Assembly: GCF_020911925.1 (NCBI RefSeq)
Contig: NZ_CP087134.1
Location: 4,154,001-4,218,000, forward strand
DNA: 64,000 nt
From: Flavobacterium cupriresistens
GTDB lineage: Bacteria; Bacteroidota; Bacteroidia; Flavobacteriales; Flavobacteriaceae
Reading direction: 5' to 3'
This document shows positions 16,432 through 51,008 of this stretch, in pieces (positions within the stretch are counted from its first letter, which is position 1; each line of letters begins with the position of its first letter). The position numbers were made by a program, and so were the translations under genes. The notes beneath the pieces are model-generated. The model ran no database searches. It saw nothing but the letters and a program-made list of their open reading frames with translations, and had not been told where the DNA came from.

Positions 16432-16460
16432 GCTGCTTAATTTTGAAATAATGGATGTAT
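16431..16460 (-). other. Gene boundary that cuts a DH domain in two
   Basis: The upstream protein ends VIHPLFQN, the exact opening of other DH domains here (HPLVHEN, HPLLHQN). The next protein opens MKFKIIYTGKESFF, matching the stretch that follows it in those DHs (QKFSSCLTGRESIL). Only TAA plus five bases lie between, and the frame changes. Compared with intact DHs about ten bases are missing, so a small deletion in an already dead DH could have created the two genes. The short gap suggests coupled translation. Confidence 0.8.
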
Positions 16461-31400: not shown

Positions 31401-32729
31401 TTCTTTCTTAAAAGCGGTTACCGGAAGTTTGATAGTGCCTGCTGCAATAGCAATTAATTTCTGTTGAAAATCATTTAAATCTATTGCCGTATTTAAGGAG
31501 CTTGGTATAACCTCTTTTACTATTTCTTCTGTTGCCGTTTTAGAGAATTCTTCCGGTTGTTGTTTATCAATTAATACTCTGCCATTACTCCTGGCAATTA
31601 TTATTTGTTGTGGAATATCTTCTTGTTTGGGATATACATCACAATCAACAAAACCAACTTCAGATAATACTTGTTTCCATTTATCGAAAGTTAATGCCGG
31701 ACTACCTGAAATTCGTAATTCTTTATCTTCATGATTCCACCAGTCAAAAAGCAAACCGAATGTTAATGTCGTAAACATTTCCAATGCGTTCAACTCATTC
31801 ATAATCAGAATCCCGTCTTTCTTAAGAATTGGTTTTATATTCTTAAGTGTTTCAGCAATATTAGCGGTAGCATGAACAACATTGGCTCCTATCACAATAT
31901 CATATTTGCCCATTGCGATATCCTGCATTGCTGCAGATTGGGTAATATCAAATCTCTTAGTTTCAAAATAAGGTATGATGTCTTCAAATTTTTCTACTGC
32001 TTCAATTAAAAAACTTTGAGAAACATCTGTAAAAGTATATTTTACCTGATTGCCATATTTTTTTAACTTTTCCAGAATACGCACCGTTGTTCCTCCTGTG
32101 CCTCCTCCTACTTCTAAGATGTTTATTTTTTGATTAGTTCCTTCATAGTTTCTGACTGTATTTTCTACAATTGATGCCACTATTGAATTGAAATAATTAG
32201 ATCTGTAATCGCCATTATAGATCGCGCTTACCAATCTGGAATTTCCTTCTGGAAACAATACATCAGTAGCTTTCGTCTTTCCAATCAAAATTTCCTCAAA
32301 AGCACCAATCGTTTGATTCAATAATGCGTAATAACTATGATGACTATTTGCCTCTTTTTTTGCTTTTAATAACTTATTGTGCAGAGAAAAGGAGGCCGCT
32401 CTTTCTTCAATATCTATTGGTACAATTACGCTTTGATTCGTAATTTGGATATAGGATATTTTCTCGAGTTCTTTAATAATCGTTTGAAATAGAGAATCAT
32501 ACTGAGGAATGATATTTAATTCTTTTCGCCATTCTTCAATTGTATTTGCACGCAAGGATTCAATTCCCATTCGCATTACTATTTGCAATACGGCCAGAGC
32601 ACAATCTTCTTTAAAATCATTCTCGGCAACCAGATCCTTTTTATATAAAGTTAAATTTGGAATTTGAGGCGTTAAAAGTGTACTTTCCTGCACCAAAGTC
32701 ACTTTTTTATTTTTATTAATCTTAATCAT
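16437..32729 (-). CDS. trans-AT polyketide synthase (cMT-ACP / three KS-DH-KR-ACP modules / terminal KS), 5430 aa
   Basis: N-terminal cMT (about 1-385; EVGGGTGGT near 206) and ACP (Ser near 450) finish module 3. Module 4: KS (about 531-950; DTACSSS), DH (1115-1376; DHIVQGKKVLP, LDNALQ), KR (1551-1743; YAAAN), ACP (Ser near 1853). Module 5: KS (1948-2376; DTMCSSS), DH (2558-2823; DHLVQNEKVIA, LDSTLQ), KR (3008-3210), ACP (Ser near 3300). Module 6: KS (3401-3830; ATMCSSS, where Asp is Ala), DH (4003-4273; EHILHTEKILP, MDSALQ), KR (4460-4653; YASAN), ACP (Ser near 4743). Module 7: KS (4828-5250; DTMCSSS) and flank, ending in VIHPLFQN, which is the opening of a DH. All KS have Cys-His-His. The KRs of modules 5 and 6 have Ala where a B-type KR has Asp. 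Predicted output is an alpha-methyl olefin followed by three more double bonds. The gap to the upstream gene is 34 bp. Confidence 0.95.
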   Translation of the reverse strand: MIKINKNKKVTLVQESTLLTPQIPNLTLYKKDLVAENDFKEDCALAVLQIVMRMGIESLRANTIEEWRKELNIIPQYDSLFQTIIKELEKISYIQITNQSVIVPIDIEERAASFSLHNKLLKAKKEANSHHSYYALLNQTIGAFEEILIGKTKATDVLFPEGNSRLVSAIYNGDYRSNYFNSIVASIVENTVRNYEGTNQKINILEVGGGTGGTTVRILEKLKKYGNQVKYTFTDVSQSFLIEAVEKFEDIIPYFETKRFDITQSAAMQDIAMGKYDIVIGANVVHATANIAETLKNIKPILKKDGILIMNELNALEMFTTLTFGLLFDWWNHEDKELRISGSPALTFDKWKQVLSEVGFVDCDVYPKQEDIPQQIIIARSNGRVLIDKQQPEEFSKTATEEIVKEVIPSSLNTAIDLNDFQQKLIAIAAGTIKLPVTAFKKEKPFSDYGFDSILGLTLIKNINKTLEITLDVTAIFNYPTIPLLALHILDIRPELLDEKKKIAAQVLEPITEKEVEEPSFSKIDSKQEKDKIAIIGMSGQFGKANDLEEFWEVLKNGKSLVEEVPEDRWDVGLHFDENPKAKQKTYSKWGSFLRDIDKFDPEFFKISGKEAENMDPQQRLFLQHCWKALEDAAIDPNTLHDSKCGVYVGATDGDYYKTYLEEANEASAFWGISGSILAARISYFLNLKGAAVAIDTACSSSLVAMDMGCKSLLTKETDLIITGGISLSVTPEFYKLSSMAGMLSPDGQCYTFDERANGFVPGEGVGVLIMKRLEDAVRDGDPIYAVVQGILTNQDGATNGITAPSVLSQQDIQKEVFNRYEINPETITYVEAHGTGTKLGDPIELQALKTSFRAHTSKVNYCGIGSVKTNLGHTLRAAGMAGIIKVLLAMKNKQLPPSINYENLNQHIQLKDSPFIIQEKLTSWDSKTPKRASVSSFGISGTNAFVVLEEYVQKNSLSGASDEPILIVLSALNEESLKKKVTQLVHFIKKEENLNLHDIAYTLQIGRKVMECRKAFVVSNIEELTDQLQQFAQEETVSSYRKDNEVNEAEIQRAIHKKQYTELAKYWEQGNTIDWLRLYTVQQPRKIHLPTYIFAKESYWITPKTEIVSSNVKTLHPLVHENISDFESQKFSSCLTGRESILSDHIVQGKKVLPGVAYVEMAREALQRSGLNVVPGFSDIKWLQPIEINKESVRIETEVYANAEGTFIEIRSIKNEKATIHFQASLEENQKTTALGYRDISAIKEQSSTSYTSDQCYQIFGTKGINYGDSLQLINSVHVLKEEVLTSISVFDKSEFKLPVEKLDNALQTAALLWLQDSDALALPYSIEKISWYNLEEEIKYCYAYYSDKENKKSFEVELLSASGEIVIALSGYKMMPILKIKPNTAQTYLYESIWQPKISTRNRADLSILSTEFIVVGDFPKVELAGTITRITDREESILFSVVFDKVKQAMTSRTPVRFVIIYDDKTEHEVQFLSGLLRTAAIENPKILWKCIGIDLDKNSNAEQLSKIITEELNERETIVRYQDLKREVKAIVPIAPPLTESNENIKFIPGGVYIITGGMGGIGKMLIEYLFDTYNDIKIMACGRSVLNSNNQEYVKSFENLTYYRCDITDKLATQQLIDEVQNQYGKLNAIIHAAGSINDNFIQQKNSGEALEVLEVKTKGIRNLHETTQHISLDFMMVFSSLAAVLGNSGQADYAAANEYLRDFAKFRNKEVAQQRAFGKTISIAWPLWDSSGMQINDESKKSLEKKLNIVPLPQEEGIYWLEKLLGSTAESVVLHYGKAPLPEIFLSDLKEVPESSVAIKNENVTEELTEESLKEVTYEYLVGILAEELRFPVSKFKITDTFEKYGLDSIMMTSLTSRLEETFPNIPKTLFFEFLTIEELVMYFVEEYSNELNAIDSSKKIPVDIKEQISIPSEIKATFKKAVPHKFVQLSETRQDDTIKRTDVAIVGLSGRYPQADSIEEFWENLKIGKDCITEIPEDRWNMEGFFDTEKGKSGRSYSKWGGFVNDMDKFDPLFFNITPLEAEQIDPQERLFLQIAWETVEDAGYTNETLKRNPYTGEQDGKVGVYVGVMYQEYQLYGVEETVKGNPTTLRGSSSSIANRVSYVFDLHGPSLSLDTMCSSSSTAIHLACKAIQEGEISMAIAGGVNLSVHPNKYLMLSDGGFASSKGKCESFGQGGDGYVPGEGVGAILLKSLEQAEKDGDHIYGVIKGSALNHGGRTTGYTVPNPKAQTAVIREAIKKANIKPESISYIEAHGTGTSLGDPIEIVGLKNALERTTANKCRIGSVKSNIGHCESAAGISGITKVLLQLKYKQLVPSIHSSLLNPNIQFDQTAFLVQQELEPWSDQDETLLTAGISSFGAGGSNAHILIQEYPKTERTTDFGKEPVIIVLSAKNKNRLKAYAGRLLSYIEKTPEALQNIAYTLQIGREAMSERLAIVTGSKEELVQQLENFVKNDVRLAEDIFTANSKDESNDFLLKGKAGAAYIKEAIQEKEIASIAQLWTKGVEIKWELLNSGNSPLQRISVPTYPFAKERYWVQTTNTAVKNESVSKLHQLLHTNESDFEAQKFASVFKGTEWFLEDHLVQNEKVIAGVAYLEMAREAIERSTHQKVTQFQDVTWLHPIKVLEQPKKVVIRLEPSGEQIRYVVYSKDQEEEYIHGQGIVTTRAQEEPKPYDLITIKSRTNQTASESECYKMFSALGFGYGERFQGIKELYYNDTEALAKITLPQHGDMTLDPGVLDSTLQACLAWLLLKDEGKMPLSIPFSVGKVTVYKEITFPVWSYARFSPNANPKATIPKCDMDLLNDKGEVVVSFKDFVILPYDGGFLNKNSRKESVATEIYDYQWEATELEKTYAHTTDYNDVILAGATQNLVQQFSREFDGNVYSVDEEIEESYFLKILELLRNRMSQKQRGQFSVLINETDYDKYGFIIGMLKSASKENPRVKTKFISIASMNVKTGNELVQILKNENLDEQAEVRYLNGTRAVKSASLVSQNQISDLRIKEGGVYLITGGAGGIGSVFAEHIAKTQGTQLILTGRRTNNDTIRKYTESLPNAQYYACDVTKYEDVENVIQTILTDYKKIDGIIHCAGIGLASTIIEKTETEIYKVLPPKIAGVKNLDKALQNETIDFMMYCSSISSVLGDIGLSDYAAANAYMDHFAKKRNRLVKDGKRKGTTISVNWGLWETGGMQANAESIEFLSKQWGMFPLPEAEGAKALDKVLQLANEQTIIVYGSKNKLDKTFGVKANSVVAIDKKETSGESAVDLSTIAYEKIVEIFKKELKLKEEHIQTELPFEEYGIDSMLVVKLTNRLSDIFDNVSVSLLFEYQTIDQLVSYFVKEHSDTLQTLNTAKGTHEVPVQMDKVIRDEAFSILEAKEYKRFMQPKLVPVIKKEEIKSEDIAIIGLSGIYPGANDIAEFWENLKAGKDSITEIPEERWNIEEFYNEQKGKKGTSYSKWGGFINDIDKFDPLFFNISPREASMMDPQERLFLQTAWHAIEDAGYTKKKLQNIGKKSATDTGGNVGVFVGVMYEEYQLFGIEERLKGNFIAPTGNASSIANRVSYFLDLHGPSMAVATMCSSSLIAIQMACENIHLGNCEGAIAGGVNLSIHPGKYLMLSDLHLVSEKGKCETFGEGGDGYVPSEGVGAIMLKSLAKAKQDGDQIYGVIKGGAINHGGKVNGYTVPNPNAQAAVILQAMDRAGVSPEAYSYIEAHGTGTKLGDPIEIAGLKKAFTGTTNQFCKIGSVKSNIGHSEAAAGISGVTKVLLQLRNKQLVPSLHSKKLNTNIDFENSPFQVQQELEDWITLDGRPRLAGISSFGAGGTNVHLVIEEYKKDSQNFLDSQEPVIIPLSAKNSVQLKEHVQKISQFLEENIKVLTINDVAYTLQIGREAMESRVAFIVANTEQLVTKLKQYLEDPATGIVGEIEANKLMAYSKISNAVEEALIQKDQTALATLWAQGERIDWNQLYDKMPTVISLPNYPFAKDYCWFKPKDATEVTAIKKEHPLVHQQANKADSSRFISKYSGTEQFLSEHILHTEKILPGVAYLEIARVSGGRYTDQKIAQLRDVFWMSPLQVNGHSKSIVTELQTVNKEITFTVKDQEQENIILSQGKISSVFTEEIEKLDIRLIGNRLGDVLDKEAYYSLFKELGFHYGTSFQGIEYIRYSGNEALAKISINQDLSDNYWTVQAMDSALQTCLGIHLKGNTRELPLSIPFSVKEVNIYKELPSEFWSYVTIREQSEEKNTPIHYDVKLIDGSGEVIMSFIDFVTLPFVSQEQAASNKIEGYTQLYSYDWKSKPITEKVISNANRNYEVILAGATSEMAERLTDELEIEVTSIQSQNEEEFFRIILDRVKQHLVNKKEQHFLILFEEQEALSYSFVSGILKSANKENPIISGKTIAVDQISVANIDLLCKIINEERTTEEAEVQYINNNREVREIGIYNKVSDQNAIVIKPNGVYIITGGAGGLGMIFANYLNQFKNTKLFLIGRSELSPEKKSEIRLLNKAKYIRCDVTDRAAISVVINEILREEGQINGIIHNAGIGTASQIIKKTPEEIHKVLAPKIDATRILDELTQQLSLDFMMYISSISAIMGDIGLADYASANAYMDAYAVHRNQLVKEGKRSGKSITINWGLWQEGGLQINEESRKYLEHYWAMLPLPTAEGLKALSYIFKEAPSQVMVVYEKASKLLEKKAHKKTAPVANTFGITKEVCVRYFRNLIGEELQIEPERIGLTTPFETYGMDSIRIVKLTNKLNEDFEDVSNTLFFENPTLDDLALYFMKNYSDSMLKLTENQEENQVIAEDKIEAFYTNKEEKEQQETNYNPIEEPIAIIGVAGKYPGANTLEEFWENLKTGRDSITEIPEDRWNTELFFDREKGKEGKTYSKWGGFVEDVDKFDPIFFNISPKEAELMDPQERLFLQTAWNTVEDAGYTPEDLNQKVGVFVGVMYSEYAMFGIDTMHEGQFATPKGIHSSIANRVSYVMNFEGPSMAIDTMCSSSVTAIHLACESLRKGECTTAIAGGVNLNLHPYKYLSLSSAGFVSSEGKCAAFGEGADGYVPGEGVGAVLLKPLSEAIKDKDQIYGVIRSTTINHGGRSNGFHVPNPNAQAKVIQKAIQKAGIQSSSLQYIEAHGTGTSLGDPIEIAGLTQALNLDHNVTCKIGSVKSNIGHCESAAGISGLTKILLQFKYKQIAPSIHSNILNKNIQFNESPFEVQQELTDWIITDTEKRRAGLSSFGAGGSNAHVILEEYQRNDDRDRAETASVLIVLSAKNTERLKQKAEELIKFLDEVETISLTDLAYTLQVGRVAMETRLSIEVTSVKSLRKELHNYLQDQFSGHQKSLKSYELNTTDNISILYKRALENKDLNELAKLWIQGEYIAWEKLYDDNTQPKRISLPTYPFVKKRYWIPEISEKFEKREKVSKVIHPLFQN

Positions 32730-32763: not shown

Positions 32764-35700
32764 TTATAAAAATTTTGCAGCAATAACTTGTTGGTATTCT
32801 TGCGCAATGACTTCTTCTAAAATTGCCATTCCTTCCTCTGCTTCTATGCTGCCAATGCCTAATTGTTTCATCTTATTTCTGTATCCATCTGAGGCTACTA
32901 CACCTACAGATCCCCAATAGCCCCAGTTAATGATCTGTACCGGAATATTGTATTTTTGTTGAACCGTATAAGCAAAACTATCTTTATACATACAGGCAGC
33001 AGCATAATTTGCTTGTCCCAAAGCATTTACCTGAGATTGCATTGAGGAATAAAAACATATAAAGTCTAATGATTCTTTGGCAAATACATCTATCAAATAA
33101 TGGCTGGCGGTTGCTTTGGATTCAAAAACTTCGACAAAAGTACTTTCGTCCATTTGGTGAATTAAACAATCCCTAAGTACCAATGCGGAGTGAAATACAC
33201 CATTAATATTTTGATAGGTTTGCTTAATTTTATGATAAGCCGATTTTACTTCTTTTTCTAAAATTGCATTACATTGGATATAAACCGGTTTTGGCCCCCA
33301 TTCTGCTATTTCTTCTTGTGCTTTTAGGATGGTTTGGTTTTCGGGGCTACGTCCTAACCAAATTATTTGGGCTTGGTATTTTTTAACCAAATAGGCCGAA
33401 GTAACTTTTCCGATACCACCTGCACCGCCCAGAATTACATACACGCCTCCTTTTTTAAATTTGGTTGTAATCGTTTGTGCTTCTAAAGGATATAGATTTC
33501 TTGTATAGGTATTTTGATGACGATACGCTATTATTTCTCCATTAGCGTCATACGGTATTCTTAATAACCTCATAATATCCTGAGCTGTTATTTTATCTGA
33601 TGTATCTACATCGATAATACGAACATTCCAATTGCTCTGTTCTTTGGCTAATGAACTCATTAATCCCAAAATCCCACTGCCTTGATACTGTACTTTATCA
33701 CTGATCAATACTTTTTGTGTACGATCTGATAAAACAGTAATGTTTAATTCTTTATGTATGTAAGGAGAAGACAATAGTTTTTTGAGCTGTTTAAAGACTT
33801 CTAATTCATTTCTCTCCCAAAATCTTTCTAATGTTGTAGAGGTGTTTTCCTCAGGTGCATCATGAACAATATATACAGCTGTAATTTTTTCTGGTATTAC
33901 AGACAATTCATCAGAATTAAAAATGGCTACGTTTTTATGGATTAAATATTCTCTCAATTCATTTACCATTTTACTTCTTTTATTTTTATAAGAAATAATT
34001 AAGGCATTTCCGTTATGGCTCTCTTCCTGTTTCGATAATGTTTCTCTTTTCCATTCAGACACATACATCAAATCGTCTATCGAATAGGGTTCTTGTGTAG
34101 GTGCTGTCTTTATATCTAAAGCAACAAAACCTTCAAATTGAACTAAGATTTCACCATCTTCATCTATTAAATCTACATTATAAGTTGGGAGTGCTTCTCC
34201 GTTTTTTGGCTCTATTTTTTTAGCATATGACCAAAATTGTTGTGGTAATTCTTTATAAATCCTGACCTCTTTGACGCGAAAAGGAAGTTTTGTTGCATTC
34301 TTTTTATCAAACCCAAAACTAAGCCCCATCACGGTTTGTACTGCACTATCCAGTAAAAACGGTGAAAGCATATAGTTCTTTTGCGTTTCTGTCAAATAAA
34401 TCTGTGTCAGGACTTCCGTATCTGAATACATAATATCCTGGATACCCTGAAAATGCTTTCCGTAAGTGATTCCTTTATCCTTTAGCAGTTTATAGTACTC
34501 TTCCTGACTTAAACTATTAGGCAATCGCAAGGCTATATTATCTATCGCTACTGATTTTATTGCTGGCAGTGAATCGTATTGAATACTACCATTACTGTAA
34601 ATAGATGTTGGATCTGATTTCTTTCTAAAATCATAACTCAACCCTTTTTCAGTTTCTTCTAATACAACAACAACCTCAACTCGTTCGTTGTCATTTTCTT
34701 GAATAGGTTCTCTAAAGACTACATCAGTAATCCTGGTCACAGCTTGTTTCTTGTACTGATTTCCTACTTCGCGAATCCATTCTATTTGCGCTGCACCCGG
34801 TAAGACATTTATTCCATTTACTTTATGTGAAGCAAAAATGGGTTCCAGACCGGAAAAAACACTTTCGTAAGTTGAATCATTTACAATTGTTTGTACTAAT
34901 GGATGCGCCTTTTGATAAGTCTTTGCTACCGTTTCTTTAGTGTTTTTTGTAGAAACAAACCAATAGCGATCTTTCTTAAAAGGATAGGTAGGCAAATGAT
35001 TTTTTTGAGGTGTTTTATTTCCATATAAAAGTTCCCAATCCATTTCTACACCCTGACTCCATAATCTGGCAATTGTATCTGCCTCTTTATCTCTAATCAA
35101 ATTGTTCATAATATCCTGAAAATCTTCTTTATCAGGACTATGCATAGTATCTTCATTATTACCAATATACATATCGGTTGATACATAATTAGTTTCAACA
35201 AATTCATTTAATCGATTGATACATTCTTTTCGATTATTTACAACAAATGCCAATCGACATTCCAGCACTTCTCTTCCGGACTGCAGCGTATACAATACAT
35301 CCTGAAAACCAGTGTCATTACTACATGATAAATACTCAATCATCGATTTAACCAGACGATTTAAACCATCAGAATCTTTGGCTGATAATACAAAAACAGG
35401 TAATGCTTCTGAAGAATGATTTGTTAACTGATCTTCTATATATTCTTCAATAATTATATGCGCATTTGCACCTCCAAAACCAAAACTACTTACACCGGCA
35501 ATTTTATGTTGCCCTTCCTTCACCTTCCAATCTGTTGTATCTTTTTGAAGATAAAAAGGAGTATTCTCTAACTTCAAGTAATTATTCGGTTGATGCAATA
35601 ATGGATTTCCAGGGATTTTATTGTTTTTCATTGCCATCAAAACCTTGATTGCTCCCGCTACTCCTGCGGCGGCTTCCAGATGTCCAATATTTGTTTTGAT

Positions 35701-38700
35701 ACTACCAATAGCACAATGAGCTTCTTGTCCATAAGAAGACTCAGAGTCTTTGTATAATGTTTCAAAAGCTAACTTTAAACCTTCCGTTTCAATCGGGTCG
35801 CCTAGTGGTGTTCCTGTTCCGTGAGCTTCAATATAACTTACTAATCCAGGATCTATTCCTGCTGTTTTATATGCTTTTATTAGTAAACTTTGTTGGGCTT
35901 TTGGATTGGGAGACGTTAAAGTATTAGCTTTCCCTCCATGATTTTCCGCGCTTCCTTTTAAAATTCCATAAATAGGATTTTTATCTTTAATGGCTTGATC
36001 TAAATCTTTTAATATTAAAATTCCAACGCCTTCTCCTCTTACATAACCATTTGCAGCCTGATCAAATGTTTTACAACGACCATCTTTGCTTAGCATGCCT
36101 GCTTGACTAAATGACAATGTTAACTCAGGTGATAAAATAGCATTTACACCTCCCGCAATTGCCAATGTACCATGACCATTTCTTATATGTTCTGCTGCTC
36201 TGTGAATTGCTATCAAAGAACTGGAACATGCTGTATCGATAGGCTCACTTGGACCATGCAAATCAAAAATGTATGATATTCTATTTACTAAAACGGAATG
36301 CGCAGAACCGGTTGCAAATTGTGCCATACCAACTTGATTTGTCTGCTCTTTTAGTAAAGTTGAATAATCTGAACTTGATACTCCAATAAAAACCCCTGTG
36401 TCTGTTCCTTTAATTGTATTGATTGAAATTGCCGCATCTTCTAAAGCATGATATACTTCTTGCAATACTAATCGTTGCTGAGGATCCATCAATTCTGCTT
36501 CTACGGGCGAAATATTAAAAAACAAAGGATCAAATTCATCTATACCGTCCAGAAAACCTCCCCACTTACATAAAGTAGTATTTTCTTCCTGTTGTGGATC
36601 TCCATAATACTTTCTCCAATCCCATCTGCTTTCAGGAACTTCTGTAATTAAATCTTCTTTATTTTTTAAATGCTCCCAAAGCTCATCTACATTTGCCGCA
36701 CCTGGAAAACGCCCACTCATACCAACTATGGCTACTTCTTTTCTACGCGCAACTTTATTTGAATCGGTATCAAAACTTGCTTTTTCCGTCTCTTCTCGAA
36801 CTGTAGCAATCGCTATGTTCTCCTTTTCATCATTAAGAGCTTGATCCTCCTCTACCGAAAGGGCATAATTCGATTCTAAATGTGCTGCTAATTCCTCTAA
36901 CGTTGGGTAATTAAAAAACAATGTTGGAGTTATATCCAATCCAAAAAGCTCATTAATTTCATTGCAGAACTGTGTATATAAAATCGAATCAAATCCATAA
37001 TCTCCAAGTTCTATATGCGAAATTATTTTCTGTGGATTCATTTTAACCAATGTAGCTGCTAGTTGCGTTAATTTTTCCAGCAACGTTTTGGTCGAAATAC
37101 TATAAGAATTGGTCGTATTTTCTACCTTCACCGGAACCTTTTCTGACGAAACTTTATAGATAACTGAAGCTTGAACACAATCTGAGTTCAAAATTTGTTT
37201 CAATGCTTTTATACCTTCTTCATTTGGCATCGCCTGCATTCCCCACTTTTTTAGTAAAAATGTTTCTGTCTGGGCATTAATTTGCATTCCGCCATTTTTC
37301 CAAAAAGGCCAATTGATACTTTTAGTTATCCCGTAGCGATTTCCTTTGCTACGCTGATTTTCTCTATATCTTGCATAATCATCAAGAAAAGTATTCGCTG
37401 CTGCGTAATCTATCTGCCCTATATTGCCATGAATAGCGGCTAGAGAAGAGAACAAAACCATGAAATCTAAAGAATCCTCTTTCGTTTCTCTATCAATATT
37501 CTTGATACCCTCTATCTTTGCTTTTAAAACTTTTGTAACCTCTGTTGCTGTTTTATTTTTTGCAAAACCATCAGCAGTACTACCAACGAGATAAAATATA
37601 CCATTGATTGTACCAAATTGCATCCTAATTTCTTTAAAAACGCTGGAAACAGAGGATGCATCCGTACTATCACATTGATAATAATATGCCCCTTCAGGCA
37701 CTCTTTTGTTAGGTTGTTCACTTCTTCCTAACAGAATCACTTTAGTGTCAAAAGTTTCAAGAATAGAGTCGCAAACGGTACGCCCTATCGCTCCGGTACC
37801 GCCTACTAATACATATACTCCTGATGTTTTAACTAAGTCATCTTGCTGTTTATGAATCGTAAATTCTGCGTTTCTTTTTTCGAGTCTTTCAAGAGCTGTA
37901 TATCGTACTTCAACTGCTTTACTAAATTGTTCTTTATTTAATATTTCAAGTATCTCATGGATATTATGAATTGAAAAATCTTCAATAGCAATTACTTTCC
38001 CTTCTAAATTAGGATGTTCTAATGTTAGTGTTTTCAGCATTCCCGAAAGGAATCCAAACTGTTCATATTCTTCGTTTGATCCTAGAACAATTAATTGTAT
38101 TCTTTCTTTTGTATGAAGTCTTTGTTTTACATCTTCAAAAATTTGGATATAAGTCGAAATCTCATTTTCAATAGTTATCGATTGAATTTCTGCTTCATAA
38201 GAATTTCTGATGGCATCCTCCAAAATTGGATTACCTCCAATCATATATACAATTGTATGGCTATGAACCGAATCCTGATTTTTGAGACAGGCCACTTTTT
38301 GCCATACAACTTCTTGGATATCCAGTGCATTACCAGACTCTTTTTTTCTTTTGTCTTTTACAGGAAGAAATACACATTGTTGAAATTGCACTAAAACATT
38401 ACCTTGCTCGTCTAAAATATCTATATCATATTCTTGAACTTTATCCGTTATTTGGTTTGATTTACTTTTGCGAGCATACGACCAAAATGTTTCCGGCAAT
38501 TGATCCACAAATCGATAACATGTTTTCATACTAAACGGGAGTGCCTGACTTAGTACTCCCTCGATCATAATCCAACCTAATGCATTTTGCAGTGCACTAT
38601 CCAAAGCACCCGGTTGCATCTTGTAACCTTCTTGTAAAGGCAACTGTATTCTCGAAATAGAAAATTCCGGGGTTGAATACTGCTCTTGTACTCCCCTAAA

Positions 38701-41700
38701 ACTTACTCCTAAATCAAAACCTTCTGTTTTCAGAAAAGCATAGAATTCTTCTCTTGAAATCTTTTTTTGACTTAAACTCAACAACCTTCTTACCTCTATT
38801 TTTTCGGGTTGTAATGGCTCTTCCAAAATAGCAGTTCCTTTACCATGAATTAAAATACTTCCGTTTTCTTTAGTATAAATCTCATAGTTATGATTTTTCG
38901 AGTCTGAATATATTCTGGTAAATACATCTTTTTGAGTATTTGCCAAAAGAGGTTGTTGCCAAAAAATGTCTTTCAGTCCCCATATTCGTTTCAAAGTAGC
39001 TTCCGCTAAAGCAATACTAGCTTGTTCTATATAAGCAACTCCTGCCAGAACTTTGTTACCATTCACTACATGGTCCTTATAAACCGTTTCTTGTCCTGAA
39101 TACGTGCTTACATACATGTGCCCATCCGATGTGACAACATTGCGATGTACTAATGGATGCAATTGATTCTGAACAGGTTCTAAAGCCGATTCCGTTATTA
39201 TATTTGATTTTACGGGTTCTATCCAATATCTGTCTTTTTCGAAGGCATATGTTGGCAATTGAACTTTTCTTATCTGTTCTTTATCATATAATAGTGCCCA
39301 ATCTATCTCTATCCCTGAAATCCATGTTTCCGCAAGAATTCTGTAGTTCTTTTTGAGGATAGCAGTATCTAATTCCTCTGAACTAATAGATGTTGTACTC
39401 TTTTTTCGCTTTTCAACTGTTCCTCTTAATACTGCATGATTAGATGTATCAAGAAATTTAGAAAGATGTTGTATGACTTCTTCTTTAGAGTTTCCTACGA
39501 CGGCTAATCGTTCTTGCATAGCATCTCTTCCCAATTGTAGCGTGTACGCAATTGCTCTTAAAGATTCTTTAGACTCTTTAAGGTAATCCAACATTTGCTG
39601 CACTTGCGTTTTAAGACTATATTCTGTCTTAGCAGAAAGTAGTATTAATTGTTCCGTACCGTCATCTGCCATTGCATCTGCTTGTAATTCCGGATATTCT
39701 TCCAAAACCAAATGGGCATTGGTTCCGCTAAATCCAAAACTACTTACAACTGCACGTCTAAGATTTTCGTTGTTAAGTTGCCAGGGTTTGAGCGTAGTAT
39801 TAATATAAAATGGGGACTTTTCCAAAGATATTTCATCATTGAGCTGCTCAAAATGCAAGCTAGGTGCAAGGTACTTGTTCTTAAGCATGAGTATGGTCTT
39901 AATGACTCCCGAAACCCCTGCAGCTTCAGCAGCATGACCAATATTTGTTTTTACCGATCCTAGTGCACAGCTATTATCTACTGCTGATTTAGTACCGAAA
40001 CTCGTTTTTAGTGCTTCAATCTCTATAGGGTCTCCCAACTTAGTTCCGGTACCGTGAGTCTCTACATATTTAATGGTTGCCGGATCGATATTATATTGGT
40101 TATAAATGCGCTGTTGGAGTAAAGCTTGTGCTGCCCCATTAGGCGCAGTAATACCATTGGTTTTACCATCTTGATTGATACCACTAGCTTTAATTACAGC
40201 ATGTATTTGATCTCCGTCTTTTATAGCGGCATCTAATCTTTTTAGGAATAGTACGCCCACCCCTTCTGATGAAACAATACCATCGCCTTTATTATCGAAG
40301 GTTTTACATTTTCCATCCTTAGAAGCCATTCCTACTTGACTTGTCCAAATGTGCAATAACGGTGTACACATTAATTTTACGCCTCCTGCCAAAGCCATAT
40401 CTGATTCTCCGGATACGATACTTTGATACGCTCTATCAATAGCGACTAACGAAGATGAACATGCCGTATCCAGCGTTAAAGCTGGTCCTTTTAGGTTCAG
40501 TAAAAAAGCAATTCTTCCCGCCAATATAGCTTGGGAATTTCCCATAAAAGCAAAGCCCTCTTTGTCAGCTTGATTTTGTGCCAATAGCTGTTGATAATCA
40601 CCTGAACTCGCCCCTACAAAAACTCCTATGTTTTGTTTATCAATTGCCTTTGATGTATAACCAGCGTCTTCTATTGTTCTCCAACATTCTTGTAAAAATA
40701 AACGATGCTGAGGATCCATTACTTCTGCCTCACGAGGTGATATTCCAAAAAACAAAGGGTCAAATTTATCTTTGTCTTTTATAAAACCAGCCCACTTACT
40801 ATACGATTTTTTCTGCTGCTTGGGGTCTTTATTATACCAATCGATGTCTTGCCATTGTTCTAAATCTATTTCAGAAATAGAATCGACACCTTCCTTTAAA
40901 TTTTCCCAAAACGCTACTACATTTTCTGCTCCCGGAAAACGGCATGACATTCCGATAATAGCCACATCAGATGCTATAGGTTTCTTAGAATTTACAATAT
41001 CCTCTACCTGTACTTCTGCGCTTACTTTTCTTTCTTGTTGTACTGCTAATTGCTTCTGATCAATTTTTACAACTTCTAAGTTTTTAATTGTGATCAATTT
41101 ACCATAATCCGAAGCTATTTCTATCGAAAAAAGAAATTTATCATCCTCTGCTTCGTGGCAAATCATACGACAATCATAATTTACATCAGACTGTGCCGCT
41201 GCGTGAATATTGATCGCTTCTATACGGTAAGGCAAATACATGACTCCATCTATTTTTCCTTGACGTTGTTGTATTGCTGCATACTGTATGGCAAATAATA
41301 GTGCTCCATCTAACCACTGAGACACATAACTAATAGCCCGATTCTGTGGTTTTGTAACTGCAACGATACCATTAGCAAATTCTCCTTCAATTTCCAGAGA
41401 CTTTCTTACTTGAAAATAACTATCAGACAAAATATCTTTAGTCCAATCTGTTAGTGCTTCGAGGTCTAGCTTAGTTCCTGATGTTTTAGGTGTATAAAGG
41501 AAATCATCGATTAAACCAACTTCTTCTACAATAGTTCCCCTAACATAAACCTTCTGTGATTCTTTGTTACTAATTATAAAGCGAATTATTCCTTCGCTAA
41601 CTTTTTTTAAATTCAGTACAATAGGAACGATTTCTCCTTTTTTGGCAATTAAAACTTCCGAGATGCGGAATTGTTTTAACGTCAAGCATTTTTTACCTAA

Positions 41701-44700
41701 TTGCTCTCTAAAAAAACTATATAATAATTCAACATAAGCATCTGTTGGTAAAATGTATTCATTGAATACTTTATGATCTCTTAAACATGGTGTATTTGCG
41801 ATACTTAAGTGATATTCAATATCAGATTCACTATCCTTTTCTATATTTCCAATGATAGCAACTGGCTTAAAAAAAGAATTAATACTACCATTTCCTTCTT
41901 CTTGTCTGTTGCTTTTAATTCTATAATTCGAACCCAAATAGGCATACAACTCAGATAAAGTTGGGTAACTGTAGAGTAAGGATGTCGGGCATTGTGTACC
42001 AAACTCTTTGTTTATTTTCTTGACAAATTCTACACCCAAAATAGAATCTAAACCTAATGATACAAAAGTATCTGTACCCGAAACTTCTTCTTTCTCTAAG
42101 TATAAAAGTTCTGCCAGAATATTTTTTAGCTCCTCTTCTTCAAATACATTTATAATTTCCTGTTCAATGCTTTCTACAAAAGACTCTTTTGTTTCGTTAG
42201 TTGCTGTTAATTCAAGACTTGATATTATATAATTACTTAATTCTTCTACATTAGGATAGCTATAAATTTGTGATGCAGGAATTGAAAGCTGCCATTTTTT
42301 ATTGATTTTCTTCACCAATTCTACTCCCAAAATAGAATCTAAACCTAATGTTACAAAAGTTTGTGTGTCGTCTATTTCAGATTCTTCCAAATACAATAAC
42401 TCTGATACCAATAGCAACAACTCCTTTTGAATAGTAGGATGTTGAGCGCTATAATTATCTTGTACTGCGTAATTTTTATCGCTTTCTTTACTTGATAAAG
42501 ATGTTTTGTTCTCGCGAGTGATTAAAACCTCGTCACTGCTGTCTATTACCTGTAAGTATACTGCTAATTCTTTTACAGTTGGATGGCTATACAATTGTGC
42601 TGTTGCAAAATCAATATTCCATTGTTTTCTGATTTTTTTCGTGAATTCAACTCCTAAAATAGAATCTAATCCCAGTTCTACAAAAGTCTGGTCGGGTCCT
42701 AATTCTTCCGGGGTCACATATAATAAATCACATAGAAGTTCATTTAGCTTTTTTTCATACCTCTCCATTAGAGTTTCAGTCGATAGTACTTCCGTTTCAT
42801 TCTCAATAGTAATTTGCGGATCACCAAAAGTTTCGATTGGTTGCAACTTAATTTTAACAATGTCTTCTTTTTTATTCGGAATAGTTGGTTGGACTAGTAT
42901 CTTAAATGCATTTGCTAACTCTTTTACCGAAGGATGACTATACAGCTTTGCCGTACTTACGGAAATCCCTAAAGCTTTATTTATCTTTTTTATAAATTCA
43001 ACACTTAAAATAGAATCTAAACCTAACTCTGCAAACGTCTGATCTTCCTTAATTTCTTCCTGTTCCAGATACAATAAATCTCCTAATATTTGAGATAATA
43101 GTAATTCTAAATTCTCTCCCAGATAAGGAGATACGGAAACAACTTCCTTCGCAACAGCAGGTATTTGGTTTAAAGGCACAAGCTTAATTTTAGCTGCAGT
43201 AAAAATCTTCTTTGATTCCATGGAGGCTACTACGTTTTCTTGGGGAGATATAATCGTTTCTTTTGTAAGCTCTGCTTGATGTATAATTGAAATGGTTTGG
43301 TTTTCTTTTCTTTCAATTTTTTTTCCTATCCAAAATCTTTTCTTAGCAAATGGATATATTGGCAATGCGATCTTTGAAATTTGAAGCTTATCATATAATT
43401 GTTCCCATTTTACAATTCCTCCTTTACTCCAAAACATCGCTAGTGCCTCAAAATTTTGTTCGATTATATACTGCTCTGCTATGGATTCCTCTTTATGAAC
43501 CTCTTTGCATTGTTTTATATTTTCTATATAGTACAATGCTGATTCTTTCTTTTCTTTCGAAAGGAAGCTTTCTAACTTATTTATTAAGTCATTATAATCT
43601 TTATATGTAAATGCTAATCGCTCTGCAAATTCTTCTTTGGCTGTTTGTAATGTATAGGCAAAAGAAGCTAATTGGATTACTTCTTGCTTTTGGATCCAGT
43701 TATACATTTCATGAGCATATCTTTCTAAACTTTCTTGGTTTAAAGCTGATAATACAAACACCTGCATCGGTAGCTGAATGTATTTGTCCATATCTAATCT
43801 CGGATTCTGATCATATGCTTCGATTACTACATGCGCATTAGTTCCTCCTATCCCAAAACTACTAACTCCTGCTCTAAGGGGCACGTTAGTAGATGATTTC
43901 CATACTTGTCCCTCAGTTTGAATTCTAAAAGGACTGTTTTCTAATTCGATATGTGGATTTAATGTTTCAAAATTTAATGTCGCAGGCAAATATTGGTTTT
44001 GCATTGACAACAGCACTTTTAATAATCCAGCAATTCCTGAAGCAGCTTCCAGATGTCCAATATTGGTTTTAACAGACCCTAAACTACACCACTTTGTTAC
44101 TGAATCAGTATGCTGCATTTGTTCAAAAGCATCTTTAAGTGCTTTAATTTCAATAGGATCTCCCAGTTTTGTTCCTGTTCCATGTGCTTCTATATAACTA
44201 ACCGTTTCTATCGGAACAGCAGCTTGCTTGTAAGCATTAGTTATTAATTTTTGTTGTTGAAACGGATTAGGTACCGTAATTCCTCCTGAATAACCTCCAT
44301 GATTAACTTCTGTACTTTTAATTATTCCTAAGATTTCATCCCCATCTTCCTGAGCTTTATCTAAAGGTTTTAAAAGCATTACAACAGCACCTTCTCCCCT
44401 TACATAACCGTTTGCTTGTATATCAAAAGTGTGACATTTTCCATCTTTACTAAGCATATTTGCATTACTGTACGCTATACTTTTTGTCGGATGGCACATC
44501 AAATGAATTCCTCCCACAACTGCTTGATCGCATTGTTTTTGTTTCAACGCTTTTACTGCCTCAGCTATAGCTACTAAAGATGAAGAACAAGCTGTATCAA
44601 TACTCATGCTTGGCCCTTCAAAATCATAAAAATAAGAAATACGATTCGCTAAAAGAGCAATTGCATTACCGGTAACAATTCCTTCTTGTGTTGCGTCATT

Positions 44701-46419
44701 TTCTGTCACTACACGTTCATAATCACTACCACTTACCCCAATAAACACGCCGGTATTACTCTTCTTATAATGACTTGGTTTTTGTTTTGCATTTTCGAAC
44801 AACTCCCAAGTTAATTGTAAAAGCATTCGCTGTTGCGGGTCCATTAATTGAGCTTCTCTGGGAGAAATTTCAAAAAATAAAGAATCAAAACTGTCTATGT
44901 CGCTTAAATAGCCTCCATAATTTATTCCTTCATATTTATTCTCAATTCCTTCAGGCCAAATCCATCTACCTTCCGGTGTAGTTGTTATTGATGAAATGCC
45001 ATCTTTAAGATTCTTCCAAAATAACTCGGGAGTATCGGCATTAGGCAATCTGCAACAAGTACTTATTATAGCTATATCAGAACTATGGTTTTCATTTTTT
45101 TCTTCTATCTTCTGATCTTCACTTACAGATTTCCCTAAGCAATACGATACAATTTGTTTGACTGTATACAATCCGAAGAATCGACTTGGATTTGTTTTTA
45201 ATCCACACTCCAGATTAAGATACTCTGATAGTTCGGTATAAATGATTGATTCTACACCTAATTTGCGTAAGTCTGTATTTAAATCGACTTCACTACTTTC
45301 ATAAACCGAATTAAAAAAGCCGATAATAATATCCGAAAGTTCTTCGGACGCTATTTTTATATTGCTATCAGCGATTTCTTCGTGAACTTTCTTGGGAGTT
45401 TCTGTTACTTCATTTTTAACAGACGCATTTTTTTTATCATTCTGTAAAATTTCGTTTTCTTTCTTTACCCTTTCTACAATTTCACTTGCTATACTTACTT
45501 TTTGATTTAGCTTCTTTACCGTAAAAATCTTGGCAATAATTTGACCGTCTTTTTCCCTGTACAATGACGATGTTAATCGTATGGTTAAATCATCTACCAA
45601 AAGGGCTTGATCAAGATGATATATTAATTTTTCATTAGGATTAGCATTTCCATAATAATGAATATCTCTCGCAGTACAAATAGCATGAATTGCCCAGTTT
45701 ATTTTTTCTCCATCTACAAGAATATGCTCTTCAAAAAAATGGCGTTCACATTTATCACTAATATTTGGGTAAGAAGCAAAATATAACAGCCCTACGCCGT
45801 TAATATCGTCGTAAGGTTCTACTTCATAAGTTCTGGTAAACAGCGGTTCTGCCAGTATAGTAAACTCTGAATCATAAAAATAATGCTTGTTAGACGTTTC
45901 TTCCTCGGCAGTAGGTAAAGAAGCTATGTGATTCTTTACATTAAAAAAAGCTTTAACGTATTTAGGTATTATTTTTAATAATGGTACTTTGGAATCGTCT
46001 TTTTGAACAGGTGTCCCTTTGACTAAATTTTGATTATCGTCATTCTTTCTCGCTGAAAAAATTGAGATCATTGAGGTTTGCAAAGTGCTATCACTTGTTC
46101 TGTTTTTTACAGTTCCATTGCTTAAAAACATTTTAGTTTTAAACTGCTCTAAACAGGACTCGATTATCGTTTCATCGTTCTCTACAAATCTTTTTAATCC
46201 TATATCGTTTTGGCAACTCCATTGTATTCTAACAAAACTGGCATAAAGACGTTCACCATTACTATCAAAGATAGCATCAGAAGGAGCTCCCAACCCTTTT
46301 GATATCATTTCCCAATGAATATCCCCTAATTCTTTTAAAAGCCAATTCTCAGACATTCTCCCATATAACATCTGAGGGATATTTAGAGAGTAATCTCTTT
46401 TTAAACAGTAAGTATTCAT
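32764..46419 (-). CDS. trans-AT polyketide synthase with LnmK/Pnap_2097-like loading domain, 4551 aa; first gene of the run
   Basis: Residues 1-325 resemble the LnmK/Pnap_2097 hot-dog family (SENWLLKELGDIHW; later NGVGLLYFASYP). Then: a loading ACP (GVESI, Ser near 391); KS1 (about 445-870; DTACSSS, EAHGTGT, GHLEAASG); four tandem ACPs (Ser near 1136, 1253, 1362 and 1459); a diverged DH-like domain (about 1530-1790); KS2 (1818-2240), DH (2418-2690; DHVVNGNKVLA), KR (2863-3060; YAAAN), ACP (Ser near 3143); KS3 (3228-3660), DH (3838-4103; SHKVNGINVLP, LDSAVQ) and KR (4320-4551; YAAAC). The last KR has no ACP here; the next protein supplies cMT-ACP. Module 1 has no KR, so its product keeps a beta-keto group or is beta-branched. 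Absence of any AT marks the trans-AT class. The start is the first ATG in frame, with the LnmK-like domain beginning about 17 residues in. Confidence 0.94.
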   Translation of the reverse strand: MNTYCLKRDYSLNIPQMLYGRMSENWLLKELGDIHWEMISKGLGAPSDAIFDSNGERLYASFVRIQWSCQNDIGLKRFVENDETIIESCLEQFKTKMFLSNGTVKNRTSDSTLQTSMISIFSARKNDDNQNLVKGTPVQKDDSKVPLLKIIPKYVKAFFNVKNHIASLPTAEEETSNKHYFYDSEFTILAEPLFTRTYEVEPYDDINGVGLLYFASYPNISDKCERHFFEEHILVDGEKINWAIHAICTARDIHYYGNANPNEKLIYHLDQALLVDDLTIRLTSSLYREKDGQIIAKIFTVKKLNQKVSIASEIVERVKKENEILQNDKKNASVKNEVTETPKKVHEEIADSNIKIASEELSDIIIGFFNSVYESSEVDLNTDLRKLGVESIIYTELSEYLNLECGLKTNPSRFFGLYTVKQIVSYCLGKSVSEDQKIEEKNENHSSDIAIISTCCRLPNADTPELFWKNLKDGISSITTTPEGRWIWPEGIENKYEGINYGGYLSDIDSFDSLFFEISPREAQLMDPQQRMLLQLTWELFENAKQKPSHYKKSNTGVFIGVSGSDYERVVTENDATQEGIVTGNAIALLANRISYFYDFEGPSMSIDTACSSSLVAIAEAVKALKQKQCDQAVVGGIHLMCHPTKSIAYSNANMLSKDGKCHTFDIQANGYVRGEGAVVMLLKPLDKAQEDGDEILGIIKSTEVNHGGYSGGITVPNPFQQQKLITNAYKQAAVPIETVSYIEAHGTGTKLGDPIEIKALKDAFEQMQHTDSVTKWCSLGSVKTNIGHLEAASGIAGLLKVLLSMQNQYLPATLNFETLNPHIELENSPFRIQTEGQVWKSSTNVPLRAGVSSFGIGGTNAHVVIEAYDQNPRLDMDKYIQLPMQVFVLSALNQESLERYAHEMYNWIQKQEVIQLASFAYTLQTAKEEFAERLAFTYKDYNDLINKLESFLSKEKKESALYYIENIKQCKEVHKEESIAEQYIIEQNFEALAMFWSKGGIVKWEQLYDKLQISKIALPIYPFAKKRFWIGKKIERKENQTISIIHQAELTKETIISPQENVVASMESKKIFTAAKIKLVPLNQIPAVAKEVVSVSPYLGENLELLLSQILGDLLYLEQEEIKEDQTFAELGLDSILSVEFIKKINKALGISVSTAKLYSHPSVKELANAFKILVQPTIPNKKEDIVKIKLQPIETFGDPQITIENETEVLSTETLMERYEKKLNELLCDLLYVTPEELGPDQTFVELGLDSILGVEFTKKIRKQWNIDFATAQLYSHPTVKELAVYLQVIDSSDEVLITRENKTSLSSKESDKNYAVQDNYSAQHPTIQKELLLLVSELLYLEESEIDDTQTFVTLGLDSILGVELVKKINKKWQLSIPASQIYSYPNVEELSNYIISSLELTATNETKESFVESIEQEIINVFEEEELKNILAELLYLEKEEVSGTDTFVSLGLDSILGVEFVKKINKEFGTQCPTSLLYSYPTLSELYAYLGSNYRIKSNRQEEGNGSINSFFKPVAIIGNIEKDSESDIEYHLSIANTPCLRDHKVFNEYILPTDAYVELLYSFFREQLGKKCLTLKQFRISEVLIAKKGEIVPIVLNLKKVSEGIIRFIISNKESQKVYVRGTIVEEVGLIDDFLYTPKTSGTKLDLEALTDWTKDILSDSYFQVRKSLEIEGEFANGIVAVTKPQNRAISYVSQWLDGALLFAIQYAAIQQRQGKIDGVMYLPYRIEAINIHAAAQSDVNYDCRMICHEAEDDKFLFSIEIASDYGKLITIKNLEVVKIDQKQLAVQQERKVSAEVQVEDIVNSKKPIASDVAIIGMSCRFPGAENVVAFWENLKEGVDSISEIDLEQWQDIDWYNKDPKQQKKSYSKWAGFIKDKDKFDPLFFGISPREAEVMDPQHRLFLQECWRTIEDAGYTSKAIDKQNIGVFVGASSGDYQQLLAQNQADKEGFAFMGNSQAILAGRIAFLLNLKGPALTLDTACSSSLVAIDRAYQSIVSGESDMALAGGVKLMCTPLLHIWTSQVGMASKDGKCKTFDNKGDGIVSSEGVGVLFLKRLDAAIKDGDQIHAVIKASGINQDGKTNGITAPNGAAQALLQQRIYNQYNIDPATIKYVETHGTGTKLGDPIEIEALKTSFGTKSAVDNSCALGSVKTNIGHAAEAAGVSGVIKTILMLKNKYLAPSLHFEQLNDEISLEKSPFYINTTLKPWQLNNENLRRAVVSSFGFSGTNAHLVLEEYPELQADAMADDGTEQLILLSAKTEYSLKTQVQQMLDYLKESKESLRAIAYTLQLGRDAMQERLAVVGNSKEEVIQHLSKFLDTSNHAVLRGTVEKRKKSTTSISSEELDTAILKKNYRILAETWISGIEIDWALLYDKEQIRKVQLPTYAFEKDRYWIEPVKSNIITESALEPVQNQLHPLVHRNVVTSDGHMYVSTYSGQETVYKDHVVNGNKVLAGVAYIEQASIALAEATLKRIWGLKDIFWQQPLLANTQKDVFTRIYSDSKNHNYEIYTKENGSILIHGKGTAILEEPLQPEKIEVRRLLSLSQKKISREEFYAFLKTEGFDLGVSFRGVQEQYSTPEFSISRIQLPLQEGYKMQPGALDSALQNALGWIMIEGVLSQALPFSMKTCYRFVDQLPETFWSYARKSKSNQITDKVQEYDIDILDEQGNVLVQFQQCVFLPVKDKRKKESGNALDIQEVVWQKVACLKNQDSVHSHTIVYMIGGNPILEDAIRNSYEAEIQSITIENEISTYIQIFEDVKQRLHTKERIQLIVLGSNEEYEQFGFLSGMLKTLTLEHPNLEGKVIAIEDFSIHNIHEILEILNKEQFSKAVEVRYTALERLEKRNAEFTIHKQQDDLVKTSGVYVLVGGTGAIGRTVCDSILETFDTKVILLGRSEQPNKRVPEGAYYYQCDSTDASSVSSVFKEIRMQFGTINGIFYLVGSTADGFAKNKTATEVTKVLKAKIEGIKNIDRETKEDSLDFMVLFSSLAAIHGNIGQIDYAAANTFLDDYARYRENQRSKGNRYGITKSINWPFWKNGGMQINAQTETFLLKKWGMQAMPNEEGIKALKQILNSDCVQASVIYKVSSEKVPVKVENTTNSYSISTKTLLEKLTQLAATLVKMNPQKIISHIELGDYGFDSILYTQFCNEINELFGLDITPTLFFNYPTLEELAAHLESNYALSVEEDQALNDEKENIAIATVREETEKASFDTDSNKVARRKEVAIVGMSGRFPGAANVDELWEHLKNKEDLITEVPESRWDWRKYYGDPQQEENTTLCKWGGFLDGIDEFDPLFFNISPVEAELMDPQQRLVLQEVYHALEDAAISINTIKGTDTGVFIGVSSSDYSTLLKEQTNQVGMAQFATGSAHSVLVNRISYIFDLHGPSEPIDTACSSSLIAIHRAAEHIRNGHGTLAIAGGVNAILSPELTLSFSQAGMLSKDGRCKTFDQAANGYVRGEGVGILILKDLDQAIKDKNPIYGILKGSAENHGGKANTLTSPNPKAQQSLLIKAYKTAGIDPGLVSYIEAHGTGTPLGDPIETEGLKLAFETLYKDSESSYGQEAHCAIGSIKTNIGHLEAAAGVAGAIKVLMAMKNNKIPGNPLLHQPNNYLKLENTPFYLQKDTTDWKVKEGQHKIAGVSSFGFGGANAHIIIEEYIEDQLTNHSSEALPVFVLSAKDSDGLNRLVKSMIEYLSCSNDTGFQDVLYTLQSGREVLECRLAFVVNNRKECINRLNEFVETNYVSTDMYIGNNEDTMHSPDKEDFQDIMNNLIRDKEADTIARLWSQGVEMDWELLYGNKTPQKNHLPTYPFKKDRYWFVSTKNTKETVAKTYQKAHPLVQTIVNDSTYESVFSGLEPIFASHKVNGINVLPGAAQIEWIREVGNQYKKQAVTRITDVVFREPIQENDNERVEVVVVLEETEKGLSYDFRKKSDPTSIYSNGSIQYDSLPAIKSVAIDNIALRLPNSLSQEEYYKLLKDKGITYGKHFQGIQDIMYSDTEVLTQIYLTETQKNYMLSPFLLDSAVQTVMGLSFGFDKKNATKLPFRVKEVRIYKELPQQFWSYAKKIEPKNGEALPTYNVDLIDEDGEILVQFEGFVALDIKTAPTQEPYSIDDLMYVSEWKRETLSKQEESHNGNALIISYKNKRSKMVNELREYLIHKNVAIFNSDELSVIPEKITAVYIVHDAPEENTSTTLERFWERNELEVFKQLKKLLSSPYIHKELNITVLSDRTQKVLISDKVQYQGSGILGLMSSLAKEQSNWNVRIIDVDTSDKITAQDIMRLLRIPYDANGEIIAYRHQNTYTRNLYPLEAQTITTKFKKGGVYVILGGAGGIGKVTSAYLVKKYQAQIIWLGRSPENQTILKAQEEIAEWGPKPVYIQCNAILEKEVKSAYHKIKQTYQNINGVFHSALVLRDCLIHQMDESTFVEVFESKATASHYLIDVFAKESLDFICFYSSMQSQVNALGQANYAAACMYKDSFAYTVQQKYNIPVQIINWGYWGSVGVVASDGYRNKMKQLGIGSIEAEEGMAILEEVIAQEYQQVIAAKFL
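41050..41830 (-). other. Diverged DH-like domain downstream of the tandem ACPs
   Basis: About 260 residues with a hot-dog/DH look sit after the four ACPs and before KS2, an unusual place for a DH. The His region reads RDHKVFNEYILP, keeping His and Pro but with Asn for the Gly of HxxxGxxxxP. The second motif is WLDGALLF: Asp kept, Gln/His of DxxxQ lost. Module 1 has no KR, so an ordinary dehydration cannot occur on its beta-keto product. It may act on a branched intermediate, isomerise, or be structural. Confidence 0.6.
41920..43120 (-). other. Four tandem acyl carrier protein domains of module 1
   Basis: Four ACPs follow KS1 with no processing domain between them. Each has the phosphopantetheine serine in a GLDSIL motif, and each is followed by SVEF, GVEF, GVEL or GVEF. 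Doubled or tripled ACPs usually mark beta-branching modules or raise throughput. In many beta-branching ACPs the sixth residue after the serine is Trp; here it is Phe, Phe, Leu and Phe. The four units are similar but not identical, about 95-120 residues apart. Confidence 0.9.
45130..46419 (-). other. Loading region: LnmK/Pnap_2097-like domain plus ACP
   Basis: The first ~430 codons encode an LnmK-like domain and an ACP. LnmK in leinamycin biosynthesis loads methylmalonyl-CoA, decarboxylates it and hands propionyl to an ACP through an acyl-tyrosine intermediate. Residues seen: GELS-like opening MSENWLLKELGD, ERLYASFVRIQW (Tyr59 is a candidate for that tyrosine by position) and INGVGLLYFASYP in the second half. 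The closest family feel is Pnap_2097, whose chemistry I do not know to be proven. The ACP motif is GVESI rather than the usual DSI. Position before KS1 suggests starter supply; supply of a propionyl branch is the alternative. Confidence 0.72.
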
Positions 46420-51000: not shown

Positions 51001-51008
51001 CACTAGGT

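Follow-up and report, generated by a model that had tools for sequence, protein, structure and literature searches.

The window analysed here, a stretch of 64,000 nucleotides (NZ_CP087134.1, positions 4,154,001 to 4,218,000) from the genome of Flavobacterium cupriresistens, which is assembled as a single contig of 5.74 Mb, contains genes of a trans-acyltransferase (trans-AT) polyketide synthase (PKS) line whose first protein, pksA, begins with a domain of the LnmK family joined to an acyl carrier protein (ACP0). We consider it likely that these two domains form a loading didomain that generates the starter unit by decarboxylation in cis, a reading based on the identity of the domain, its predicted fold, its catalytic positions, the constraint acting on it, the gene context and the recurrence of the arrangement. 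The open reading frame of pksA (32764..46419, minus strand, as are all its features) encodes 4551 amino acids, with the LnmK domain at the 5' end, and mapping with seed segments of our own choice gives the order LnmK-ACP0-KS1-ACPx4-DH-KS2-DH-KR-ACP-KS3-DH-KR, backed by Pfam matches to three ketosynthase (KS), six PP-binding, two KR and three DH_N stretches. The LnmK-family domain, putatively of the double-hot-dog type, occupies 45505..46419 (residues 1-305; seed mapping spans 9-305) and is followed by ACP0 at 45124..45354 (residues 356-432; motif GVES with the carrier Ser391; PF00550, 27.9 bits) and by KS1 at 43834..45087 (residues 445-862; seed mapping and Pfam), which has the motif DTACSSS and, judging by the presence of Cys611, is an extending KS. 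The reading frame and the domain mapping thus agree with the original prediction that an LnmK-type domain is joined to its own ACP and directly precedes KS1; ACP0, indeed, has no KS upstream and lies immediately ahead of one with an active Cys, as is typical of a loading module.

That the domain belongs to the LnmK family, as had been proposed from the sequence, is confirmed by its score of 145.4 bits against TIGR04098, the profile of LnmK-type bifunctional acyltransferase/decarboxylases (AT/DC), for which the curated cut-off is 100. The alternative label of a Pnap_2097-like domain falls short, with a score against TIGR04099 of 111.3 bits, under the curated cut-off of 125. A double hot dog was likewise anticipated, and this is the fold predicted for the domain, with LnmK as the closest fold. 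The proposed match of Tyr59 (codon 46243-46245) to the acyl-tyrosine holds at the level of aligned sequences, rather than coordinates, in that Tyr59 pairs with index 62 of 6x7l_A; Tyr62 is said, in the paper on the LnmK structure, to be the acyl-transfer residue. Alignments and a search of the PDB with a trimmed profile further revealed the loop NGVGLLYFASY as common to the window domain and LnmK, and the accessible text of PMC8666670 ascribes decarboxylation, both in LnmK and in MadB, to an Asn on a like loop. When residues were counted in the 203 near-full-length relatives among the matches listed (204 matched, one being short), the loop Asn207 (codon 45799-45801) and His35 proved to be kept in all 203, Arg251 in 202 (with one gap) and Tyr59 in 198, the exceptions being Cys in three and Leu in two. 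Purifying selection on the domain is strong: in three ortholog pairs the ratio of nonsynonymous to synonymous substitution rates (dN/dS) is 0.045-0.065 for the LnmK domain, 0.078-0.095 for KS1, 0.047-0.057 for KS2 and 0.426-0.496 for the linker behind the domain.

The LnmK-ACP-KS head is more widespread than the original prediction supposed. A scan of named genomes yielded 106 encoding stretches; among the best 80 of these (79 loci), the 18 loci matching up to residue 428-430 (L015-L032) all come from Bacteroidota, with hosts including Flavobacterium, Aquimarina, Bizionia, Chryseobacterium, Chitinophaga, Fulvivirga, Cyclobacteriaceae and Saprospiraceae. The nearest named relatives belong to Flavobacterium, among them Flavobacterium sp. 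FlaQc-50 (99% across the first 435 residues) and F. hydatis (ortholog L017, 92%). In all 20 loci examined (the 18 plus L010 and L011; 19 of them distinct, as L010 and L023 denote one and the same locus), LnmK, ACP and KS are encoded in this order in a single reading frame, and the content of module 1 behind KS1 differs from locus to locus (tandem ACPs, one ACP, or DH-KR-ACP). Matches to TIGR04098 occur in six of 398 Flavobacterium genomes, five of them in frames of 1284-4573 amino acids and one in a 372-residue ACP-LnmK protein, and in three of 395 genomes of a sample of the phylum, one of the three far under the cut-off. The 204 family members among the matches listed divide into 122 with LnmK alone (an upper bound, because many rows derive from short contigs), 56 ACP-LnmK, 25 LnmK-ACP-KS and one LnmK-ACP. 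The form with the ACP first, often of about 366 residues (e.g. L014 1474-2589), is a common two-domain form outside PKS proteins. LnmK-headed PKSs are also found in Aquimarina sp. EL_43 (P0178, 6145 amino acids) and Aq78 (P0179, 6428 amino acids). Aq78 produces cuniculene, but we do not assign this compound to P0179: EL_43 is also LnmK-headed and is not listed with the cuniculene cluster in the accessible part of the source.

Two trees of the LnmK domain, both quick ones inferred without bootstrap, clarify how the fused domains are related. In the larger one, of 100 rows, the 24 fused rows from Bacteroidota share one branch (support 99) with P0004 (LnmK-ACP) and P0005, a fragment from a 1094-base contig. 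The tree of 71 rows places the Bacteroidota on one side of a branch with an SH-aLRT value of 97 (25 rows, including the unfused didomain P0004) and contains a separate actinomycete branch of 16 rows with a value of 100. The actinomycete group joins unfused relatives with a support of 87, short of the 95 mark, and this position points to two fusions.

The actinomycete parallel was recognized by a tblastn search of plasmids, which returned 17 records, two of them spanning 80% or more of the query. The top match, a Streptomyces globosus protein aligned over query residues 6-429 with 28.9% identity, is WP_114059171.1 (L099; 19998-26072 of NZ_CP030864.1), a PKS of 2024 amino acids that starts LnmK-ACP-KS, scores 212.6 bits against TIGR04098 and is the first PKS in a cluster of the elfamycin type, the closest relative cluster with a nameable product class. 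The cluster includes a facT-like elfamycin pump (97.5%, a PLSDB prediction), an aspartate decarboxylase, a crotonyl-CoA carboxylase, two P450s, two ATs, a phosphopantetheinyl transferase (PPTase) and nonribosomal peptide synthetase genes, a set close to that of aurodox and kirromycin as described in the accessible portions of PMC9361827 and PMC5818483. A protein search with the S. globosus head, which scored only those candidates with the most words in common, retrieved at least 46 relatives, not all of them necessarily from elfamycin lines. In this group (the query and the relatives listed) the place of Tyr59 is taken by Leu in 47/47, and the loop Asn is kept in 45/45 readable sequences, mostly within NAAG, NGAG or NALG. 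The 24 large proteins of the Bacteroidota type have Tyr in 23 and Asn in one at the Tyr59 place, and the loop Asn in 23, with Ser in one.

The activity, the substrate, the transfer to KS1 and the methyl branch that we infer for pksA would be connected as follows. The LnmK domain would take a malonyl-type unit, from CoA via Tyr59 and/or after loading onto ACP0 by a trans-AT, and the Asn207 loop would remove CO2, leaving a short saturated acyl group on Ser391 of ACP0. KS1 would accept this starter and condense it with malonyl carried on the four ACPs of the beta-branching type that stand in tandem in module 1 (41947..43119, residues 1101-1491; seed mapping). The domain mapping of pksA showed no KR in module 1, so that an HMGS cassette encoded elsewhere in the cluster would probably convert the beta-ketone into a methyl branch. 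The resulting chain start would be 3-methylpent-2-enoyl from a propionyl starter or 3-methylbut-2-enoyl from an acetyl starter. Provided that the didomain does load the chain, we lean slightly towards propionyl made from methylmalonyl-CoA, with acetyl made from malonyl a serious contender; the kept Tyr59 hints at self-loading from methylmalonyl-CoA, which would not be provided by a malonyl-type AT, and it is because this argument is weak that our preference is so slight. The presence of methylmalonyl-CoA mutase was considered as a means of discriminating between the two starters and rejected, since PF01642 gives hits in each of the 17 genomes searched (in G792 partial ones only, the best at 317 bits).

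The alternative that survives best overlaps with the loading reading and concerns the substrate: the domain may be a malonyl-ACP decarboxylase that yields acetyl-ACP0 from malonyl loaded by a trans-AT, with Tyr59 a relic or a substrate-positioning residue. Chains of the kirromycin type terminate in a penta-1,3-dienyl group, which implies an acetyl starter, and elfamycin chains start with acetyl. Such a start fits a domain that, like those of the elfamycin-type heads with their conserved Asn and missing Tyr, solely decarboxylates malonyl loaded onto the ACP by a trans-AT. The available text of PMC9361827 mentions acetyl-CoA being extended in AurAI and AurAII, and that of PMC8666670 describes MadA/MadB as hot-dog enzymes that turn malonyl-ACP into acetyl-ACP with an Asn loop. 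However, the window domain retains both Tyr59 and the LnmK loop, unlike the Tyr-less group, and with malonyl supplied by a trans-AT there would be no need to keep the Tyr; we therefore regard an acetyl-forming decarboxylase as conceivable but the less probable option for pksA. A scenario accommodating both groups, which we offer as a tentative one, is that LnmK domains became loaders in cis of trans-AT PKSs on two or more occasions, in Bacteroidota and in Actinomycetota, the Tyr-bearing ones loading themselves from methylmalonyl-CoA to give propionyl-ACP (and a 3-methylpent-2-enoyl chain start in the window) and the Tyr-less ones decarboxylating trans-AT-loaded malonyl to acetyl-ACP.

Several points weigh against a decarboxylating loader of the LnmK kind. 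The window domain is just 18-19% identical to LnmK, and it has His35 where LnmK has Thr and Arg251-Asp252 where LnmK has Gln-Gln, so that it may differ in substrate or activity. Since some rows have Leu, Cys or Asn in place of Tyr, the Tyr is not essential to the family. We know of no assay of any member of the subfamily to which the window domain belongs. The mutase is weak evidence for a propionyl starter also in that PF01642 matches eight of 14 control genomes. Finally, the KS1 domains do not make up a single clade: in a tree of 42 KS rows, 18 of them KS1 (those of L011 and L030 being too short and L010 omitted as a duplicate of L023), one group holds 11 KS1 rows (100/100), a second holds six (96/86) beside KS3-type rows, and the KS1 of L025 stands apart on a very long branch.

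A role as branch donor, in which the didomain would hand a propionyl (or acetyl) group to HMGS at module 1 as LnmK-LnmL does in leinamycin, appears improbable. In its favour, LnmK and LrgK act in this way in leinamycin-type clusters according to the accessible part of PMC9396626, module 1 has ACPs of the beta-branching type and an HMGS is present in the cluster. The latter, however, is the sole PKS-type HMGS of the source genome (the second, weak match at C1:700875 is by inference of the mevalonate type) and sits in a cassette beyond pksD, outside the window (G000:C1:4137813-4144520). A small, PRK07117-like ACP (G000:C1:4144287-4144520; 76.9 bits against a cut-off of 79) adjoins there a decarboxylase-type KS, PRK07103-type, which reads GAASASG in the Cys region and, by motif, has Ser at the Cys position; the rest of the cassette comprises the HMGS, crotonases of the PRK07112 and PRK07110 types, an AT (G000:C1:4139232-4140203) and a PPTase. 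This looks like a complete beta-branching set with a donor ACP of its own, that role being suggested by context, and LnmK-ACP0 is thus not the only candidate donor for HMGS, which disfavours the branch-donor role. So does a search with the cluster HMGS in the genomes carrying the fusion (20 entries, 14 matched, with three pairs merged as the same genome by identical match coordinates): strong matches (at least 676 bits) were obtained in 11 of the 17 distinct genomes and no PKS-type HMGS in the other six, although in several of these the absence is unproven because they are metagenome-assembled genomes. Among the six is G617, 99% complete in two contigs, whose line starts LnmK-ACP-KS-DH-KR-ACP-KS. 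The didomain, moreover, is fused immediately ahead of KS1, and since the fusion goes with KS1 rather than with HMGS we take it as a loading unit. Of the two roles originally proposed, starter loading is hence upheld by the constancy of LnmK-ACP-KS before varying module 1 contents, and the donation of a propionyl branch to module 1 is disfavoured. An editing or structural thioesterase-like hot-dog domain devoid of decarboxylase activity is a very unlikely explanation.

The tandem ACPs of module 1 have GLDSILxVE motifs with Phe, Phe, Leu and Phe in turn at the flag position; Phe is found there also in virginiamycin ACP5a/5b in the accessible text of PMC10006238, whose authors dispute an important role of Trp. 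The lack of a KR in the mapping, the four ACPs of the beta-branching type and the cassette in the cluster together make beta-methylation of the first condensation product likely, and module 1 is probably beta-methylated on these ACPs. Between them and KS2 (39715..41004, residues 1806-2235; seed mapping and Pfam) lies a DH-like domain (41050..41874, residues 1516-1790; seed mapping; PF21089, 40.5 bits), which is common to L015-L017 and L026 and may shift the double bond of the beta-methylated unit.

Downstream of pksA the line continues with three further PKS proteins on the minus strand, their reading frames bearing domain labels from our own seeds: pksB (16437..32729, 5430 amino acids), pksC (5503..16431, 3642 amino acids) and pksD (1..5502 in part, running past the window; 2576 amino acids in full). 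Genes for a LodA/GoxA-like oxidase, which is extended by a long stretch at its N terminus, and for a LodB/GoxB-like flavoprotein adjoin the PKS genes at 47788-52103 of the window; both proteins score below the NCBIfam cut-offs. Also beside the PKS genes, on the minus strand at G000:C1:4149582-4151384 (L005 15582-17384), a Rieske [2Fe-2S] domain (PF00355) is fused N-terminally to a cytochrome P450 (PF00067), an unusual arrangement of electron supply.

The source of the first unit is unclear for many trans-AT lines, and a recurring LnmK-ACP-KS head would make starters predictable from sequence in Bacteroidota and could explain how elfamycin-type lines start. The natural Tyr-to-Leu split may divide acyl transfer from decarboxylation within one fold, so that this question of mechanism can be put directly to the test, and engineering would benefit from a starter module that is fused and portable.

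GNAT-like and KSQ loading modules, which have unrelated folds, are also known to form starters in cis by decarboxylation. Among systems of related fold, LnmK of leinamycin (TIGR04098; PDB 4hzn, 4hzo, 4hzp and 6x7l-6x7p) shares with the window domain the double hot dog, the acyl-Tyr position and the NGVGLLYFASY loop, but besides the residue differences given above it is a free-standing enzyme that works on a separate ACP, LnmL, and serves HMGS branching, to which, in the accessible part of PMC9396626, it supplies propionyl. MadA/MadB (PF09500) resemble the domain as hot-dog decarboxylases with a catalytic Asn loop and an acetyl-ACP product (PMC8666670, as far as available), but have a single hot-dog domain and serve fatty acid synthesis, outside PKSs. 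The AT/DC Lom62/LomC, which we take to be an LnmK homologue, resembles the domain in the role proposed here. As far as the accessible text of PMC5321127 and PMC7247197 goes, this enzyme makes the propionyl starter of lomaiviticin by decarboxylating methylmalonyl; it differs in being free-standing and in belonging to a type II PKS. Decarboxylative starter formation by such enzymes is therefore already known. The S. globosus protein has the same LnmK, ACP, KS order at the head of its line as pksA, but differs in its low identity over the didomain, in Leu for Tyr and in its separate branch in the tree. The literature searched, whose coverage mostly leaves out subscription journals, yielded no account of a PKS with a fused LnmK domain, and what appears to be new is the covalent LnmK-ACP-KS head of modular lines, together with its spread and the Tyr/Leu split. 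As an arrangement common to its relatives, the head of pksA is a genuine but modest departure from chemistry already known.

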